Assembly (NCBI GenBank): GCA_000242935.3
Contig: CP007053.1
Span: 7,177,001-7,241,000, forward strand
Origin: Opitutaceae bacterium TAV5
GTDB taxonomy: Bacteria > Verrucomicrobiota > Verrucomicrobiia > Opitutales > Opitutaceae
Reading direction: 5' to 3'
Length of the DNA: 64,000 nucleotides
A program made the translations under genes and the position numbers. The notes under the pieces are model-generated. The model saw only the letters and a list, made by a program, of their open reading frames with translations. It was not told the origin of the DNA and ran no database searches. This document shows, piece after piece, positions 13,853-48,093 of this stretch; position 1 is the first letter of the stretch; every line of letters starts with the position of its first letter.

Positions 13853-14923
13853 ATGAACCCTCTTCCCGGCATTACCCTGCAATCCATCGCCAAGGCCGCG
13901 GGCGTGGCGCGTTCAACGGTTTCCAAGGCGTTGCGCAACGATCCGACGATTCCGGCCGAAACCTGCCGGCGTATTCAGGCGCAGGCGAAAAAACTCGGTT
14001 ACAAGCCCAGCCCCGCCGTTTCGGCCCTGATGAGCCAGCTCCGGCGCAACCGGCACCGGAAACATTTCGAGCCGGTCGCGTTTGTCACCGCATTCCCGAC
14101 CCCGGACAAATGGAGATCAATGATCCAGTACAAAGCCTATTTCGACGGAGCCACCCAACGCTGCGAGGAACTGGGCTTTCGCCTCGAAGAGTTCTGGCTG
14201 GGTAGCGTCAACTGGCAGGGCGCACGCTTGTCGAATATCCTGCAAACACGCGCCATCCGGGGGGTGCTTCTTGCGCCCGCACCCGCCACCACCGTCACCC
14301 GTATCGACATGGACTGGACACAGTTCTCCATTGTCGCATTCGGCTACGGTCTCAAGAATCTGCCCTGCCATCGCGTGACCAATGACCAGTACCGCACCTT
14401 GCTGCGCCTGCTCTCGCGGCTCGATCATCTCGGTTACCGCCGCATCGGACTGATGTATCCGAAATCTTCCGACCAGAGTATCCTCAATTATCTGTTCGCC
14501 GCAACGTCCGTCTACCAGAGCTATCTTCCGCAGGCGCTCCACGTGCCCCCGCTCATGGTGGAGCATCAGAATTCCCGCGACCTGATCGAGTGGATCCGTC
14601 AGCACCGGCCCGATGCCGTGGTGGTCAGCCATTCGGATGCGCTGAAGTGGCTGAAGGAAGCGGGCATTCGCGTGCCCGAAGACCTGGGGGTGGCGTTTTT
14701 TTCCGGACGCGACATCCGCGCCGAAAAACTCGCCGGCATGGACCAGAATCCGCGCCACATCGGCATGACGGCCATCGAGCTGATGGCAGAGCAACTTTAC
14801 GAAAACCGCACCGGTATCCCCGCCTTCCAGAAAATCGTCCTCGTCGAAGGCGAATGGAACGACGGCTGGACGGTGCGAGACCAGGGAATCGGTCCTTCAC
14901 TCGACTGGAGCCGGCTGCTCTGA
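13853..14923 (+). CDS. LacI-family transcriptional regulator
   Basis: 356 residues. The N-terminal helix-turn-helix is clear: TLQSIAKAAGVARSTVSKAL followed by the hinge-type segment RIQAQAKKLGYKPS. The rest is a periplasmic-binding-protein-like effector domain ending in the Opitutaceae-type segment AIELMAEQLYENRTGIPAFQ. I start at the ATG at 13853, next to the HTH; ATGs at 13823 and 13835 would add residues without family support. A perfect LacI-type palindrome at 13779-13799 lies just upstream, and near-copies lie in the 17885-18168 promoter gap, so it probably represses itself, the PEP-CTERM gene, the MGH1-type hydrolase and the second GH115-like gene. Effector unknown. Confidence 0.88.
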   Translation: MNPLPGITLQSIAKAAGVARSTVSKALRNDPTIPAETCRRIQAQAKKLGYKPSPAVSALMSQLRRNRHRKHFEPVAFVTAFPTPDKWRSMIQYKAYFDGATQRCEELGFRLEEFWLGSVNWQGARLSNILQTRAIRGVLLAPAPATTVTRIDMDWTQFSIVAFGYGLKNLPCHRVTNDQYRTLLRLLSRLDHLGYRRIGLMYPKSSDQSILNYLFAATSVYQSYLPQALHVPPLMVEHQNSRDLIEWIRQHRPDAVVVSHSDALKWLKEAGIRVPEDLGVAFFSGRDIRAEKLAGMDQNPRHIGMTAIELMAEQLYENRTGIPAFQKIVLVEGEWNDGWTVRDQGIGPSLDWSRLL

Positions 14924-17884
14924 AGGCTGGACGGCGCGCACCTCCAGCCGTCCCGGCGTCGCGGCGCGCGCTTCCGCCGCCAGCGTCACCGCCAGCAAGC
15001 CGGGCACCGGCTCCGACACCGCCGGCGCAGCCAGTTCGCCCCCGTTCCATGTCACGCGATAGCGCGGCCCGGCCCTCATGCACACGAGCACCGAACGCGC
15101 CATCCTCCCGCCCCCTCCGGGGAACAAAATCTCGCTCTCGAACTGCGTGGCCCGCGCCGAAAACCGCGATGCCCTCACCCAGGCGTCGAAACCGACGCTC
15201 AATCGCCCCGGACAATAACAGGCTGCGTAAAAAATCATCACCGGCGTCGAAAGTCCGGAAAACTGGTGCCAGCCGCAGCCGCGTCCGGTCTCGATCAGGA
15301 AGTGCTCGAAACAGTGATACGACTCGTCCACTTCCGCGCGCCACGTTTCGAGCGCGCGCTGCGCAATGGCCAGCGCCAGATCGGGGCGGGCGAGGTCGAG
15401 CATCGTTTTCCAGAAAAACCACTGCTGAGGAAACCACACCGTGCCCGACCAGTAACCGTCGCGCCGGTAATAAGGCGCGGAGCGGTCCACGGCCGTCAGT
15501 CCGATCTCCGTCCACACCCGCGCCGGATCGAACAACCGCTCCAGCAACCACCCGCGCCGCCCCGCATCGCCGACTGCTCCGGCCGCGCCCGCCACGAGCG
15601 GAAACAGTCCGTCGAGTCCCCGGTTGTAGTTTGTCCCGCTCGCCGGATGCCGGAGCGGCCCGGCGGGATTCCCGTCGGCATCATGGACGACATACGAGTA
15701 ATAACCTGCCTCTGCATCCCAGGCGTGCCGTTCCAGTGCCTCGCCGAACGCCGCGATGTCGACCTCGTAACCGGCGACGTCCGCCGCCAGCGCCGCATCG
15801 CCGCCGCCGGTTGCTTCGCCGAGTTCGCGTGCGGCCAAGGCCAGCGTCTTCGCGCAGCGGATCGCCAGCGCCGTGGTGACGACCGGCGTCACACGATCCG
15901 CCAGCCCCGCCTCGTGCATGTGTTTCTGCGGCGGATAATCGTCCCAGCCCGAGTTGTAAAAATAGTCCCAGCTCCGCAGCAGGTCCGAACGCAGAGTGCG
16001 CAATGTCGATCCCTCCGCGTGCCCCGCCAGGAAGCGGTAGTACTGCCGCAGCGAGGCGTAGTGTTTTTTCAGCGACGCCTTGCCCGCGGCTCCGCCCGCG
16101 CCGAGCCGGTTCCACACTTCGTGCGCGAGGTGGATCTGCATCGGCACCATGCTCCCGTGATGGATGAAGGCCGCGTGCGGATTGCCGGGCGCGGTCAGGT
16201 ATTGCGAAAGGTTGTCTTCCGCCTGGACGACGTCGATTTCGAGCAACCCGAGTCCGATGAAACCCGAGTCCCAGGTGTAGAGGCTGTTCCACCAGCGGCC
16301 CGGCGGACGATGCCGCACCTGCTGGCGCTGCGTGTAAACCGGAAACACGGCGTTGCTCAACGTGGTGGCTGCCATCCGGTTCTGACTGAAGGCGAACGCC
16401 CGCCCTGCCGGATTGGCCGCAAACGTAAACGCCCGCCTCCGTGCCTTGCGATGCGCCAGTTCGTGCCGCGCCGCGCGCACAGCAGCGTCGCCCTCGAAAA
16501 ATAGTGCGAACTTTTCCGCCAGGGCCTCCGGCGTCCCTTGGCACACAAGCCCCCAAATTACCGTGCGGGATTTCGGCGCAAGCGTGACGGGACGGATAAA
16601 CACATTGGTGAAATGCCCCTCGCCATTGCCGCGCAGGGTTTCGTTGACGTGATCGTGCGCCTTGTAGCGGACAAAACTGTCGAGCTCGCTGTTGAGGATT
16701 TGCCGCACCTCGAAATCGGCCGTGTCCCACGCGATGCCGTAATGCGCGGGCGCGTCGGGGTATTTCAGGATCAACCGGGCGCCAGGATCGTCCGGAGCGG
16801 CGGCATTCCTGCCGCTGCCGTGAACGCCACGGGGTTGTTTCGTAGTACGCAAGGCGTCCGGAAATCCGGATACGTTGTCCGGAAAAGCAGCGGCAGGAAT
16901 GCCGCCGCTCCGCAAAATCTCCGGCCGCGGTGACCATTCCTTTTCGACCACGGTAACCGGTCCCGATGCGGCCGGCACCAAGGCCAGAAACGCGATCTCC
17001 GCCGCCCCGCCGGCTTCCATCGCTTCGAGTCGCAGCGAATGCTGCCCGGGCGCGAGTTTTCCGATCGCCATTTCGATGTTCCGGAAGTCGCCGCCGGCAA
17101 ATGCCAGCGTTCCCGTTTTCTCCTGCGCATCCGGCCCGGCGAACCCGGTGACGCGAAAACTCCCCTGCCCTCGCCCGCGAACGACGAGCCGCGCGTCGTC
17201 CATCGGCTTTGGCAACGTAAACGTATAGCCGACCGCGTCGCCGACATCGCGGCCGAAGCGACCGCCAAGTCCGCTGCCGTCGAGAAAACCATGGCCGCGC
17301 ACTTCGCCGCGCAGCAACCCGTCCGCCACCAGATGGTTGTCGGGCGCGGGCACCGCAAAGTCGAGCGTGTCATAATCCAGCGGATGTTTCACGAGGGGTC
17401 CGCCGCCGTTGCTGCCGCCGCCACCACTACCGCCATCACTGGCCGCCGTCACCTCAATCCGGCGCAGGGCTTCGGCGGAATAATTGGACGCCGTCGGAAA
17501 ATTCATCGACGCCATCGCGTGCAAGGCGACCGGCACGTCGCGCGCCGTCGCGTTGACGAGCTCGCACCGCACCCGCAACCCCTCGCCGACGTCAGCCCCG
17601 TCGGTCAAGGGAAACCAGGCGATGTCGGCGTACACCTTGTCCTTCCAGACCAGTTCGTGGCGCGTGCTGAAGTATTCGAACGCCGGTCCGCATTCCCACG
17701 GATGCCAGCCCGATTCCCAGGTCACGTTGGGCACGTCGATCCGCCGCCGGTAAAGGGCGGGAAACACGCTCAGGTCGAATCGCAACCCGAGTCGCCGGTC
17801 GGCGATATGCGATGCGCCGGCATAACATTTTGAATACGGTCCCCAGTCGGGAAGCGAGAGATCGTGGTTTTTCGGAATAAACAT
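14897..17884 (-). CDS. Large MGH1/GH63-type (alpha/alpha)6 glycoside hydrolase
   Basis: 995 residues from ATG 17884, chosen because MFIPKNHDLSLPDWGPYSK begins the family-like part and the longer frame runs through the operator region. The C-terminal half has trehalase/GH63-like barrel motifs: NSLYTWDSGFIGLGLLE, SGTNYNRGLDGLFPL, YYRRDGYWSGTVWFPQQW and CGWHQFSGLSTPVM. No signal peptide is visible, so it may act in the cytoplasm on imported oligosaccharides. Its 3' end overlaps the LacI gene on the opposite strand by 27 bases. Around codons 325-365 an inverted-repeat element is inserted in frame (see 16794). Substrate is not predictable. Confidence 0.75.
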   Translation of the reverse strand: MFIPKNHDLSLPDWGPYSKCYAGASHIADRRLGLRFDLSVFPALYRRRIDVPNVTWESGWHPWECGPAFEYFSTRHELVWKDKVYADIAWFPLTDGADVGEGLRVRCELVNATARDVPVALHAMASMNFPTASNYSAEALRRIEVTAASDGGSGGGGSNGGGPLVKHPLDYDTLDFAVPAPDNHLVADGLLRGEVRGHGFLDGSGLGGRFGRDVGDAVGYTFTLPKPMDDARLVVRGRGQGSFRVTGFAGPDAQEKTGTLAFAGGDFRNIEMAIGKLAPGQHSLRLEAMEAGGAAEIAFLALVPAASGPVTVVEKEWSPRPEILRSGGIPAAAFPDNVSGFPDALRTTKQPRGVHGSGRNAAAPDDPGARLILKYPDAPAHYGIAWDTADFEVRQILNSELDSFVRYKAHDHVNETLRGNGEGHFTNVFIRPVTLAPKSRTVIWGLVCQGTPEALAEKFALFFEGDAAVRAARHELAHRKARRRAFTFAANPAGRAFAFSQNRMAATTLSNAVFPVYTQRQQVRHRPPGRWWNSLYTWDSGFIGLGLLEIDVVQAEDNLSQYLTAPGNPHAAFIHHGSMVPMQIHLAHEVWNRLGAGGAAGKASLKKHYASLRQYYRFLAGHAEGSTLRTLRSDLLRSWDYFYNSGWDDYPPQKHMHEAGLADRVTPVVTTALAIRCAKTLALAARELGEATGGGDAALAADVAGYEVDIAAFGEALERHAWDAEAGYYSYVVHDADGNPAGPLRHPASGTNYNRGLDGLFPLVAGAAGAVGDAGRRGWLLERLFDPARVWTEIGLTAVDRSAPYYRRDGYWSGTVWFPQQWFFWKTMLDLARPDLALAIAQRALETWRAEVDESYHCFEHFLIETGRGCGWHQFSGLSTPVMIFYAACYCPGRLSVGFDAWVRASRFSARATQFESEILFPGGGGRMARSVLVCMRAGPRYRVTWNGGELAAPAVSEPVPGLLAVTLAAEARAATPGRLEVRAVQPSEQPAPVE
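16794..16911. repeat. 25-bp perfect inverted repeat inside the MGH1-type gene
   Basis: Left arm 16794-16818 (ggagcggcggcattcctgcc...) and right arm 16887-16911 are exact reverse complements over 25 bases with a 68-base loop. The left arm recurs exactly at 54841-54865 in an intergenic gap. Here the element is read through as coding sequence, adding residues such as LRSGGIPAAAFPDN and GSGRNAAAPDDPG that do not look like the surrounding enzyme. Confidence 0.85.
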
Positions 17885-20400: not shown

Positions 20401-20497
20401 GTGGCGCGGGCGTCCCGCCCGCAGACGGCGCGGAGCGCCGCCCTGAAACAAGGGTGAAAGGCACCTCCCGCAAAAGCGGACGAGACGCCCGCGCCAC
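20401..20497. repeat. Interspersed palindromic repeat, GTGGCGCGGGCGTCCCGCCCGC type
   Basis: Left end gtggcgcgggcgtcccgccc (20401-) and right end ...gagacgcccgcgccac (20476-20497) are inverted; the interior has the smaller palindrome cggcgcggagcgccg. Modules of the same kind occur at 30243-30340 and 49372-49462. The element abuts and probably truncates the pseudogene to its right. Confidence 0.65.
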
Positions 20498-30163: not shown

Positions 30164-30392
30164 GCGCAATTGGTTGCGCAGCCCCCGTCCCCGCTGACGC
30201 GGGGAAATGAAGAATCAAGAACTGATGGTACGCAGGCCGACGGTGGCACGGGCGTCCAGCCCATGATTGCCGGGAAGAGAGGGGGAAGGAGGGACGCTTG
30301 CGGCGCGGAGCGCCGTCCACGGGCAAGATGCCCGTGCCACGTCGCACGCGCGTAACTTCAGTCAACCCGGCAGCGAAGCCGCCAATTCTCCC
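30164..30392. repeat. Mosaic of interspersed palindromic repeats
   Basis: This gap between the LacI gene and the MFS gene is almost entirely repeat modules: gcgcaattggttgcgca (30164-, shared with 7823), cccgctgacgcggggaaatg (shared inverted with 21990s), gtggcacgggcgtccagccc (30243-), the small palindrome gcggcgcggagcgccg, cacgggcaagatgcccgtgc (30318-) and gcagcgaagccgccaattct (shared with 21905). No coding function is seen. Confidence 0.65.
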
Positions 30393-42138: not shown

Positions 42139-42240
42139 GTCCGGCCGGGGAGGGACACGTTCCGGGAAACCACGCCGAAAGGAGTCCCGGCCGGAGACGA
42201 GGCAGGCGCTCCTGCGTATGAACCTGGATTCAGAAGTTGA

Positions 42241-42392
42241 AACCGCTAAAGGACGCTAAAAGCCGCTAAAGGAGAGCCGGTTGATGAAGGAATCAGGAGG
42301 CCGGGACATTCCACCTGCCGGGTGAAGGCATCGCCGGGTTCTCCTGTCTGACCATGTCTTTCTTTAGCGTCCGTTAGCGTCCTTTAGCGGTT
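42241..42392. repeat. Inverted CGCTAAAGGA-type short tandem repeats
   Basis: At 42241-42275 three near-copies of a 9-11-base unit (ccgctaaagga, cgctaaaag, ccgctaaagga) are in tandem. At 42359-42392 the inverse appears (tttagcgtcc, gttagcgtcc, tttagcgg). The outer arms match at 19 of 20 positions. The 42139-42427 gap, between convergent genes, has nothing else of note. Confidence 0.6.
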
Positions 42393-42427
42393 CCCTCTGC
42401 TGCGGTTTTCAGGATGAAACAGGCGGG

Positions 42428-44792: not shown

Positions 44793-47700
44793 TCACGTCA
44801 TCCCTCCCGGCGCTTCCACGATCAGGCGGATGGCATCGAGGCGCAGCCGCGCCTGATCGATGGCCGCGCGGGTGTTCGCGATCTGTTCGGTGGCGAGCGC
44901 GATCTCTTCAGGGCGCACGTTGTCGTTGAGTTTTTGCAGATCGAGGAGGCGCTGCCGGCCGGCGGCGAGCGTCGTCTCGGCCCGGGCGGCGGCGGCGGCC
45001 TTCAGGTCGAGGATACGCGCCTCGGCGCGCGCCGTGGCGGCGGAGACCAGGTTGCGGAGAAGCGTGGCGTTGAAGCCGGGGCGTTCGAGAAAACGCTGGA
45101 TCGTGCCGTCCGTGATTTCGCCGGCGATGGTCGCGGCATCGCGCTCGCCGGTCAGGTCGCGGCCGCGGACGTCGACGAGCACGCGAACCGGCGTCGGCGC
45201 GAGGAACCGGTCCACCTGCCAGCGCGAATCGGCCACGGCCTCCAGGACAAAAACCGCCTCCAGCAGCAAATTGGGCGTATCCGACCGGATGATACCGAAG
45301 CTCGCGCTGCCGGCCGGGGAGCGGGTGAGCAGATCGATGGCATCCTGCACCAGCGGATGATCGGCCGAGAGGAAGCGGATATCCTCGCGGGCGATGGCGC
45401 GTTCGCGGCTGAAGGTGGCGAGCATGCCATCGCGCGGGATCGACGGGAAGGCCTCGACGTACGCATGCGCCGGATCGAGAAACACGTCGCCGCTCTCGTC
45501 CTCCTTCACGCGCACGCCGAAGTGATCGAGCAGCGCGAGCAGGAAACGGCGCAGGAACGGATCGGTATCTTCCTCCCGGATACGTTCGATGACGCGGGCG
45601 GCGACACCGGCGTCGAAGGAGTTGATCTCGAGCAGGCGGTCGCGGCCTTGTTTCAGTTTTTGCGAGAGTGTCTTGCGGAAGCCGGCGGTTTCGGCGACGA
45701 GGGTTTCGAGCGCGGCGCGGCCGGTCGTGTGTCCCGCGCGACCGTGGGCCTGCACGAGCGCGAGCAGGCGGTCGCGGAAACGCTGCCGGTATTCGTCCCC
45801 GCCATGGAGCGAGGTCTCGAAGGCGTCGAGGCCGCGGTGATACCACTCGACCACGCACTCTTCGGCGCTGCCGGCGACGTACGGCACGTGGATGCGGATG
45901 GTCTGCGTCTGGCCGATGCGGTCGAGACGGCCGATGCGCTGCTCGAGCAGGCCGGGATTGAGCGGGAGGTCGAAAAGAACGAGATGGTGGGCGAACTGGA
46001 AATTGCGCCCTTCGCTGCCGATCTCGGAACAGATGAGCAGTTGCGCGCCGTCGGGCTCGGCAAACCAGGCGGCGTTGCGGTCGCGCTGGACGAGCGGCAG
46101 TTCCTCGTGAAAGAGGCCGGTCTTGATGGCGGCCTTTTCCTGGAGGGCGGCATCGATGGCGACGGCCTTGCGCCGGGATTTGCAGATGAGGAGCACTTTT
46201 GCCGGACGGTGCTTTTTGAGGAACGCCGCCAGCCAGTCGATACGCGGGTCGCCGCGAAACGAATAACGGATGCCGGCATCGGCGCCGGTTTCCTCGGCGA
46301 GGATTTCGCGGGCAATCCGGGCGAGTGGAGAGGGATGGGAGATATGGGAGGAATGAGACTTATGAGAGAGACGGGAAGTCCCGGACGCGCCGGGCGCAGA
46401 GCCGCCGGGAGACTCGGGGCATGAGAGCGCGTCTCCCCCCATCCCCTCCGTCTCATAAGTCCCATCCCTCCCATCTCTCCCATATCTCCCATCCTCCTCC
46501 TCATCCCCCGCACCGGGAGCCACCGCTGTCGCCTCCAGCGGCGCGGGGCAAAACCTGCGTTTCGGGAAACCGCTCATCGCGGCGCGGGTGTTGCGGAACA
46601 TCACGCGGCCGGTGCCGTGCTGGTCGAGGAGGTTTTTGAGGAGCGCCTCGCGCGCGCCGGGCTTGCCCGCGGCCAGCGCGTCGAGGTGCGCGCCGAGTTT
46701 TTGCAGATCGCGGGTGAAGATTTTTTTGAGCGCGGCGTGGTCTTTTGCCGTCAGCGGTTTCCCGTCGATGATTTTGCCGGCGATGCCGGCGACCGCGCCG
46801 AAGGTTTCCGATTCCTGCAAAAACCGTTCGTAATCGGCATAGCGGTGCGGATCGAGCAGGCGCAGCCGCGCAAAATGACCGGCGACGCCGAGCTGCGTGG
46901 GCGTGGCCGTGAGGAGGAGCAGGCCGGGCGCGCGCTGCGCCAGTTGCTCGACGAGGGCGTAGCCCGGGCTGGCCGGGATCGCGGCGGCGGGCGACCATTC
47001 GAGGTGATGCGCCTCGTCCACGACCACGATATCCCAGCCGGCGGCCACGGCCTGGTCACGGCGGCGTTCGTTGGCGGCGTCGGCGAGAAAATCGAGACTG
47101 CACAAGGCAAGCTGGCTGGCGTTGAAAGGATTTTGCTCCGGGTCGCTCTGCTCGCAGGCAAGACAGCGCGCTTCGTCGTAGATGCTGAACCAGAGATTGA
47201 AACGGCGCAGCAGCTCGACGAACCACTGGTGCGTGAGCGATTCGGGCACGAGGATGAGCACGCGGCCCGCGCGTCCGGTGGCGAGCAGACGTTGCAGGAT
47301 GAGGCACGCCTCGATGGTCTTGCCCAGCCCCACCTCGTCGGCCAGCAGCACGCGGGGAATCTGCCGCGAGGCGACTTCGTGGAGGATGTACATCTGGTGC
47401 GGGATGAGTTCGAGCCGCCCGCCAAGAAAGCCGCGCACCTCCGACTGCCGGAAGCGATGCTGCGCCTGCAACGCGCGGAAACGCAGGTCGAACACCTCGC
47501 CGGCGTCGGTCTGGCCGGCCAGCAGGCGCTCGGAGGGCGACGTCACACCGATGATATCGGAAAGCGCATCCTCGCGCACGCGGCGTCCGTCCTTGCCCAC
47601 ATAAACCAGCACGCCCGCCCCCGTCGCGTCGCCGACGGCGCTGGCGGTGACGGCGGAGCTCCCCTGCCCTGTCGCCGCGCCGCCGTCTTCCCCGGCCTCG

Positions 47701-47948
47701 ACCGAAGCGACCACCATCTGCGCGCCGTCGCGCGTGGTGATCGTGTCGCCGGCCCGGAACTGCACACGCCGGAGCACGGGTGTGCCGAGCGCGTAAAGGC
47801 GGCGTTCACCGGTGGCGGGAAACCCGATCCCGATGCGCGACTGCGCGCGATCCACGCTCACGACAATCCCGAGCCCGAGCTCGGGTTCGCGTTCGCTCAT
47901 GCAACGCTGGCCGATGCGGCCAACCTGTTCGACGATGTTTTCCGACAT
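44793..47948 (-). CDS. rapA: RapA-type SNF2 RNA-polymerase recycling ATPase
   Basis: 1051 residues from the ATG at 47948. RapA-like throughout, a Swi2/Snf2 motor that reactivates stalled RNA polymerase. It has N-terminal Tudor-like domains (GIVVSVDRAQSRIGIGFPA), Walker A DEVGLGKTIEA, motif II VVDEAHHLEW, motif III LLLTATPTQ, then LLICSEIGSEGRNFQFAHHL and the LLEQRIGRLDRIGQTQ motif, and ends with the RapA C-terminal domain (ADHPLVQDAIDLLTR). An inverted-repeat element is inserted in frame at 46322-46497, in the linker after GFPKRRF, adding about 60 low-complexity residues. The length exceeds E. coli RapA (968), as expected from that insert. Confidence 0.9.
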   Translation of the reverse strand: MSENIVEQVGRIGQRCMSEREPELGLGIVVSVDRAQSRIGIGFPATGERRLYALGTPVLRRVQFRAGDTITTRDGAQMVVASVEAGEDGGAATGQGSSAVTASAVGDATGAGVLVYVGKDGRRVREDALSDIIGVTSPSERLLAGQTDAGEVFDLRFRALQAQHRFRQSEVRGFLGGRLELIPHQMYILHEVASRQIPRVLLADEVGLGKTIEACLILQRLLATGRAGRVLILVPESLTHQWFVELLRRFNLWFSIYDEARCLACEQSDPEQNPFNASQLALCSLDFLADAANERRRDQAVAAGWDIVVVDEAHHLEWSPAAAIPASPGYALVEQLAQRAPGLLLLTATPTQLGVAGHFARLRLLDPHRYADYERFLQESETFGAVAGIAGKIIDGKPLTAKDHAALKKIFTRDLQKLGAHLDALAAGKPGAREALLKNLLDQHGTGRVMFRNTRAAMSGFPKRRFCPAPLEATAVAPGAGDEEEDGRYGRDGRDGTYETEGMGGDALSCPESPGGSAPGASGTSRLSHKSHSSHISHPSPLARIAREILAEETGADAGIRYSFRGDPRIDWLAAFLKKHRPAKVLLICKSRRKAVAIDAALQEKAAIKTGLFHEELPLVQRDRNAAWFAEPDGAQLLICSEIGSEGRNFQFAHHLVLFDLPLNPGLLEQRIGRLDRIGQTQTIRIHVPYVAGSAEECVVEWYHRGLDAFETSLHGGDEYRQRFRDRLLALVQAHGRAGHTTGRAALETLVAETAGFRKTLSQKLKQGRDRLLEINSFDAGVAARVIERIREEDTDPFLRRFLLALLDHFGVRVKEDESGDVFLDPAHAYVEAFPSIPRDGMLATFSRERAIAREDIRFLSADHPLVQDAIDLLTRSPAGSASFGIIRSDTPNLLLEAVFVLEAVADSRWQVDRFLAPTPVRVLVDVRGRDLTGERDAATIAGEITDGTIQRFLERPGFNATLLRNLVSAATARAEARILDLKAAAAARAETTLAAGRQRLLDLQKLNDNVRPEEIALATEQIANTRAAIDQARLRLDAIRLIVEAPGGMT
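46322..46497. repeat. Inverted-repeat element inserted in frame in rapA
   Basis: The left half (ggatgggagatatgggagga...) and the right half (...tcccatatctcccatcc) are inverse complements with small offsets, sharing at least ggatgggagatatgggag and a central acttatgag module. The coding frame stays open and gives EEEDGRYGRDGRDGTYETEG then RLSHKSHSSHISHPSP. The base composition and the amino acids clash with the flanking ATPase. Confidence 0.8.
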
Positions 47949-48093
47949 CCTCCCATGAGGCCGGAAGAGCGCGGGAGCCGGCAAGTTTCAATATGAAGGA
48001 AAGCTCCCTCCCCCCCCGAACCGGACTCCCTTCCGCGCTCCGGCCCGTTTTTCAGCTTCCCGCTTTCGCTCCGCTCCCCTCTCCTGTCAGGCA

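Follow-up and report, generated by a model that had tools for sequence, protein, structure and literature searches.

The Rickettsia palindromic elements (RPE; Ogata 2000, 2002, reviewed in PMC10969869) are dispersed palindromic sequences of about 100–180 bp that have entered a range of unrelated housekeeping genes in frame, where they are tolerated. The TAACTGA heptamer direct repeats, or STRR, of the Beggiatoaceae (MacGregor 2015, PMC4679880) stand in tandem just upstream of start codons that lack a Shine–Dalgarno (SD) sequence, and some copies fall within open reading frames (ORFs). REP/BIME sequences, which occur with RAYT transposases (PMC3733652), are small dispersed palindromes that are mostly intergenic. 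Here we describe a degenerate 9-bp repeat that resembles each of these in part and that interrupts rapA of Opitutaceae bacterium TAV5.

We analysed a window of 64,000 nucleotides, positions 7,177,001–7,241,000 of the 7.32-Mb TAV5 chromosome (the genome comprises two contigs, 7.42 Mb). Within this window, rapA, which encodes the RNA polymerase-associated SNF2-family ATPase, occupies 44793–47984 on the minus strand as a 1,063-amino-acid ORF that is open from end to end; its first start codon is TTG, and an ATG at 47948 is the likelier start. The ORF matched the NCBIfam RapA model NF003426 over its full length and across both motor lobes (1000 bits). Structures of Escherichia coli RapA in the PDB aligned to residues 24–479 and 574–1056, so that both halves of the motor were recovered on either side of the insert, in line with the intact motor motifs of the first-pass annotation, and the linker between the lobes, which contains the insert, was left unaligned. 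In an alignment of 19 homologous loci (one row, L054, was uninformative because it represents an antisense frame), CPAPL and ARIARE lie about 70 residues apart in TAV5, compared with 8–9 in most relatives. This lineage-specific stretch (46326–46535, minus strand; 70 codons, about residues 484–553) amounts to a net in-frame gain of 62 amino acids. The first-pass annotation had placed the segment at 46322–46497, which gave the right location for an inserted stretch that proved slightly longer. The insert was absent from every readable ortholog; the contig of the single same-genus genome stops after the 5' third of rapA, and the absence therefore rests on the remaining orthologs. Among the aligned relatives, only G004 has a longer inter-lobe linker, and its sequence is unrelated.

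An AlphaFold2 model built from 16 sequences assigned pLDDT values below 50 exactly to residues 487–550, with well-formed lobes on either side. The insert is thus predicted to form a disordered loop that links one motor lobe to the other. RapA carrying this loop probably still works, in keeping with the earlier expectation that the protein tolerates it. A second low-confidence stretch, residues 101–120 (47625–47684, the GGAATGQGSSAVTASAVGDA region), coincides with a break in the alignments of most relatives and contains no 9-mer.

A degenerate 9-bp unit, ATGGGAGNN / NNCTCCCAT, makes up the inserted DNA; two arrays of it, inverted relative to each other, span 46,322–46,500 in frame in rapA. The inverted arms (46330–46376 and 46442–46488) are 47 nt each, 83% complementary and separated by 65 nt. 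Arm 1 (46330–46376, plus strand, the purine strand) reads ATGGGAGAT-ATGGGAGGA-ATGAGACTT-ATGAGAGAG-ACGGGA, and in the rapA sense it is the pyrimidine 3' arm, coding for LSHKSHSSHISH. The centre (46377–46441, 65 nt) forms small nested hairpins. Arm 2 (46442–46500, minus strand) is the purine 5' arm in the rapA sense; it reads ATGGGAGAT-ATGGGAGAG-ATGGGAGGG-ATGGGACTT-ATGAGACGG-AGGGGA and codes for EEDGRYGRDGRDGTYE, with the array of ATGGGAGNN units extending beyond the paired arm to about 46500. A two-unit pattern, ATGGGANNNATGGGA, with at most one mismatch, matched six times in the window against 0.26 matches expected, and all six fell in the rapA segment. The inverted two-module structure read from the sequence at first pass is thus borne out, as are the low-complexity EEDGRYGRDGRDG and LSHKSHSSHISH peptides that it was said to encode. 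The rapA-strand RNA of the segment folded at -110 kcal/mol (z = -6.0; none of 200 shuffles was as low). In general, the unit consists of a core of 6–7 bases, ATGGGAG/CTCCCAT, and a free two-base spacer, and it occurs in arrays of 3–6 units, single or as hairpins; with these cores, the 9-base period leaves two reading frames on either strand without a stop codon.

The module recurs across the TAV5 genome. The ATGGGANNNATGGGA pattern had 35 matches genome-wide against 0 for a reversed control pattern, and a relaxed three-unit pattern (up to two mismatches) had 86 against 1; together these define roughly 30 loci. Neither observation that would have overturned the first-pass reading, the same sequence in all relatives or a lone copy in the genome, was made. 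We relied on exact and relaxed patterns because a nine-position profile, when scanned over 1.66 Mb, came to favour purine-rich coding sequence and discriminated poorly against reversed sequence (9 versus 3 hits at score 30). When the gene context of 34 arrays was assigned with a simple, purpose-made gene caller based on codon usage, most were found in short intergenic gaps. Five loci are inverted pairs (rapA, 3285k, 4019k, 5948k and 7302k), with the purine arm first in every one; the pair at 3285k lies between convergent genes, and three of the four intergenic pairs had fold z scores of -4.6 to -7.2, compared with only -1.3 at 4019k. Many arrays are one-armed. No shared flanking homology was seen between loci, and unit orders are permuted, so that a dispersed master copy with a fixed order of units was not seen. 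The word "element" used in the first-pass annotation is too strict, as the ends of the arrays are not fixed, the spacers are free and often there is a single arm. Nor was a target-site duplication visible, although for rapA and menD the divergence of the relatives makes this uncertain.

Several copies lie within genes. The cleanest is in menD, where GGGEGRDGSQGSYGREGSYGK-type sequence occupies a 25-amino-acid in-frame insert that is absent in six of six relatives, including the same-genus genome; this copy is a single array with no hairpin. The linker of mfd contains LHKSHPSPVSPP, and that of mutL contains PLSPLSPTPPLSPLSPP and HGSYGTEETPGT. These array-like linkers are likely to be insertions, although the linkers vary among relatives too. 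The C-terminal end of a hydrogenase-4-like subunit is GHISPIGHITPIAPLSP, and a match in another ORF at 6142k may be due to chance. The peptides encoded by coding copies change with strand and frame.

The window holds other inverted repeats. One lies at 16786–16919, in frame in a GH63/MGH1-like glycoside hydrolase gene (14897–17767). Its arms, GGAGCGGCGGCATTCCTGCCGCTGC, are near-perfect and 25–26 bp long, with 125 arm matches at roughly 50 loci genome-wide and a full copy, 96% identical, at 6,606,349. The first-pass annotation had taken this repeat and the rapA segment together to suggest a recurrent mechanism. This genome does tolerate hairpins in frame, from two or more unrelated families, but the hydrolase repeat belongs to a family unrelated to the nonamers and the two are therefore not one mechanism seen twice. 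In a convergent gap at 42231–42402, a 10-base unit, CGCTAAAGGA, forms inverted arrays around a 90-nt centre (fold z -5.4), adjoining an upstream terminator-like hairpin with a T-run; this repeat shares the architecture of the rapA segment with a different word. Two related intergenic inverted repeats, at 20401–20497 and 30243–30340, have GTGGCRCGGGCGTC / GACGCCCGYGCCAC-like arms. Rfam had no matches within the 64-kb window.

Outside TAV5, the strict two-unit pattern matched at most five times in other Opitutales. The same-genus genome, G001, had seven relaxed matches, each of them with the full two mismatches allowed, which indicates that the TAV5 expansion is lineage-specific. Other genera of the family carry their own flavour of the repeat, ATRGGACNN. 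Across the phylum, 43 of 289 genomes had three-unit matches and reversed controls were almost all zero; the spread is patchy, with 30–84 three-unit matches in some genomes and none in others of the same genus. A search of 84,980 species genomes for four exact units of TCYYAT-NNS, a pattern with a chance expectation of essentially zero, found it in many phyla: the matches listed include Planctomycetes, Verrucomicrobia, Lentisphaeria, Acidobacteria and Hydrogenedentota, and further Sumerlaeota, Cloacimonadota, deltaproteobacterial and Bacteroidales records. Many of the matches listed are inverted pairs; a few others evidently belong to coding sequence or to pure tandem repeats. A MAG contig of the Opitutaceae (L280) carries inverted 9-mer arrays whose flanks of about 30 bp are mutually inverted, a possible trace of how pairs originate. 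We found no paper containing these repeat strings or describing a nonanucleotide repeat of this kind.

The arrays appear to turn over quickly. At six gaps with orthologous flanking genes, compared in up to six relatives, the arrays were missing, and several of these gaps held different short-period inverted repeats instead, of the CACAGAGG, CGCGAATCA, CACGGAA and GAGGAGYGAG types. As read from sequence, such gaps therefore look like sites at which short repeats arrive and are lost, the nonamer family being one among several. In related genomes, the gaps that precede the sufT and ureC orthologs (L324, L328, L329, L332 and L345) each have a distinct short-period repeat, mostly inverted.

Together, these data show that the nonamer family is real, dispersed, lineage-specific and mostly intergenic, and that it also occurs in frame in coding loops. 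We consider it probable, with some reservation, that the rapA segment represents, in frame and as an inverted pair, one copy of a degenerate nonamer repeat that is dispersed and turns over fast, similar to REP, RPE and STRR sequences and tolerated in loops. Such a repeat, non-functional or weakly used, would spread by some copying process, and copies would be retained in places where they are largely harmless, in intergenic gaps and variable protein loops. Persistence in loops would be helped by the 9-base period, because it is stop-free in two frames of either strand, and the rapA copy would be translated as a disordered inter-lobe loop. Copies in gaps would keep the G-poor pyrimidine strand as the sense strand, because TAV5 leaders are C-rich, G-poor and lack an SD sequence. 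In 588 leaders sampled from 1.66 Mb, C made up 0.36–0.39 and G about 0.19 of the bases, C accounted for 56% of the two bases preceding ATG, and no SD signal was present (SD-like tetramers in 6.5% versus 5.8% after shuffling). In leaders of this kind a purine orientation would be conspicuous. Six Y1/RAYT-like transposase genes (Y1_Tnp) are present in the genome, and nothing links them to the arrays; no mobilizing enzyme linked to the arrays was found.

The most serious alternative is that the arrays are functional RNA sites. Intergenic, G-poor UCCCAUNNC could act as a leader or standby site for SD-independent initiation, or be bound by a protein of the S1, Csp or Rho type; paired arms would then be processing or terminator hairpins, and the rapA copy a stray. 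The orientation of the arrays fits this proposal: in 16 of the 18 unpaired arrays between co-directional genes, the pyrimidine strand is the sense strand (two-sided binomial 0.0013), as it is in 7 of 7 non-hairpin arrays from other genera of the family, a count that leaves out the hairpins L190–192. Unpaired arrays precede thiG-, pheS-, sufT- and dus-like genes, and also lie within a urease operon (the thiG and dus labels are sequence readings, and NCBIfam had no match for the thiG-like gene). Several arrays reach the following start codon, as TCCCATG, and some contain the stop codon of the preceding gene within CATAA(C/G). A similar role has been proposed for TAACTGA repeats upstream of starts (MacGregor 2015, PMC4679880). 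In the related genome G005, three hairpins built from the 9-mer (L190, L191 and L192) are followed by T-runs and resemble intrinsic terminators. The proposal is also consistent with hairpins that keep their core while the spacers vary, and with the avoidance of identical neighbours in three genomes, both detailed below. Against it, the arrays are not kept at orthologous gaps, no common function was seen among the downstream genes, copies lie in frame inside coding sequence, and general leader composition predicts the same strand bias and may alone explain it. We regard RNA-site function as possible, though of fairly low probability. Two other readings of the sequence were set aside. A replication-strand polarity of the KOPS kind does not fit, since array orientation tracks genes and not chromosome position. 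A G-quadruplex is not favoured: GGG runs at 6-nt spacing would suit one in principle, but they are conserved no better than the other core positions, and the ATAGGAC of relatives breaks the runs.

Alternatively, each array could have been born locally, a chance seed having grown through replication slippage and fold-back template switching, with a shared mutational bias and no common origin. Differing array lengths, random ends, the lack of visible flanking homology between loci and the other short-period inverted repeats in relatives' gaps are all compatible with local birth. However, slippage would make neighbouring units identical, and neighbours with identical spacers were rarer than expected in three genomes (1/70 versus 6.7 expected, 2/51 versus 10.0 and 8/84 versus 14.8; these statistics are approximate, as some loci within one genome may be related). 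Simple slippage is thus disfavoured, although loss of unstable perfect repeats could be another source of the avoidance. Fold-back copying would likewise produce matching spacers, whereas in the five TAV5 hairpins Watson–Crick pairing reached 82% at core positions and, near random, 54% and 36% at the two spacer positions. The arms share the core motif and not the spacers, and therefore are not recent fold-back copies. One core also recurs in many phyla, and on balance we find local birth doubtful. A coding low-complexity expansion specific to rapA and selected at the protein level would fit the variable inter-lobe linker, which is longer in G004 as well. It is nevertheless scarcely credible, as the G004 linker has an unrelated sequence, the same DNA module has intergenic copies, and opposite strands within one insert encode unrelated peptides.

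Our preferred reading, a tolerated copy of a dispersed repeat, faces a difficulty of its own: a fixed core, free spacers and neighbour avoidance would also be expected from selection on a binding site. The puzzle is that these three features occur together with a strand bias and with arrays that are rapidly replaced at orthologous gaps; it points either to an unrecognized repeat-writing process or to an unrecognized RNA-binding code. The broadest version of the claim, that degenerate nonamer arrays with a fixed TCYYAT core and free, neighbour-avoiding spacers form a class spanning phyla, are written by an undescribed machine or maintained by an undescribed factor that binds RNA or DNA, and can insert in frame into housekeeping genes, seems to us unlikely on present evidence. 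To our knowledge, Rickettsia is the main known case of selfish or filler DNA in frame in housekeeping proteins; TAV5 has an ordinary-sized genome with such DNA in rapA, menD and probably mfd and mutL.

Compared with described repeats, the TAV5 arrays share with RPE, taken by description, in-frame coding insertions that are absent from orthologs (62 amino acids in rapA, 25 in menD) and, in rapA, a palindromic hairpin; the single array in menD means that this second likeness does not extend to all copies. They differ from RPE in that the arms are arrays of degenerate 9-mers with free spacers, many are one-armed, most are intergenic and the encoded peptides seem to keep no common sequence. With the TAACTGA repeats they share a position before starts, an orientation bias towards the downstream gene, a patchy spread across phyla and coding copies. 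That unit is a fixed 7-mer, however, whereas the TAV5 unit is a degenerate 9-mer with free spacer positions, is pyrimidine-rich and stop-free in two frames of either strand, and commonly forms inverted pairs. Like REP/BIME sequences, the arrays are small, dispersed, mostly intergenic and palindromic, but the rapA segment lacks GTAG, has CGTC only within an arm and not as an end tag, and contains no fixed palindrome of 20–40 bp; the six Y1_Tnp genes are present in the genome, with no link to the arrays seen. Compared with a MITE, the rapA segment has inverted arms and no visible target-site duplication, the latter judged against relatives whose divergence makes it uncertain. A minisatellite grown by slippage should have similar neighbours, and here identical neighbours were too few in all three genomes. 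Inverted pairs in gaps, including the three in G005 with T-runs, resemble intrinsic terminators, but the rapA copy lies mid-gene without a T-run and unpaired arrays have no hairpin. Because a defining feature differs in each case, we place these arrays outside both RPE and the TAACTGA repeats, as a further variety of short dispersed repeat.
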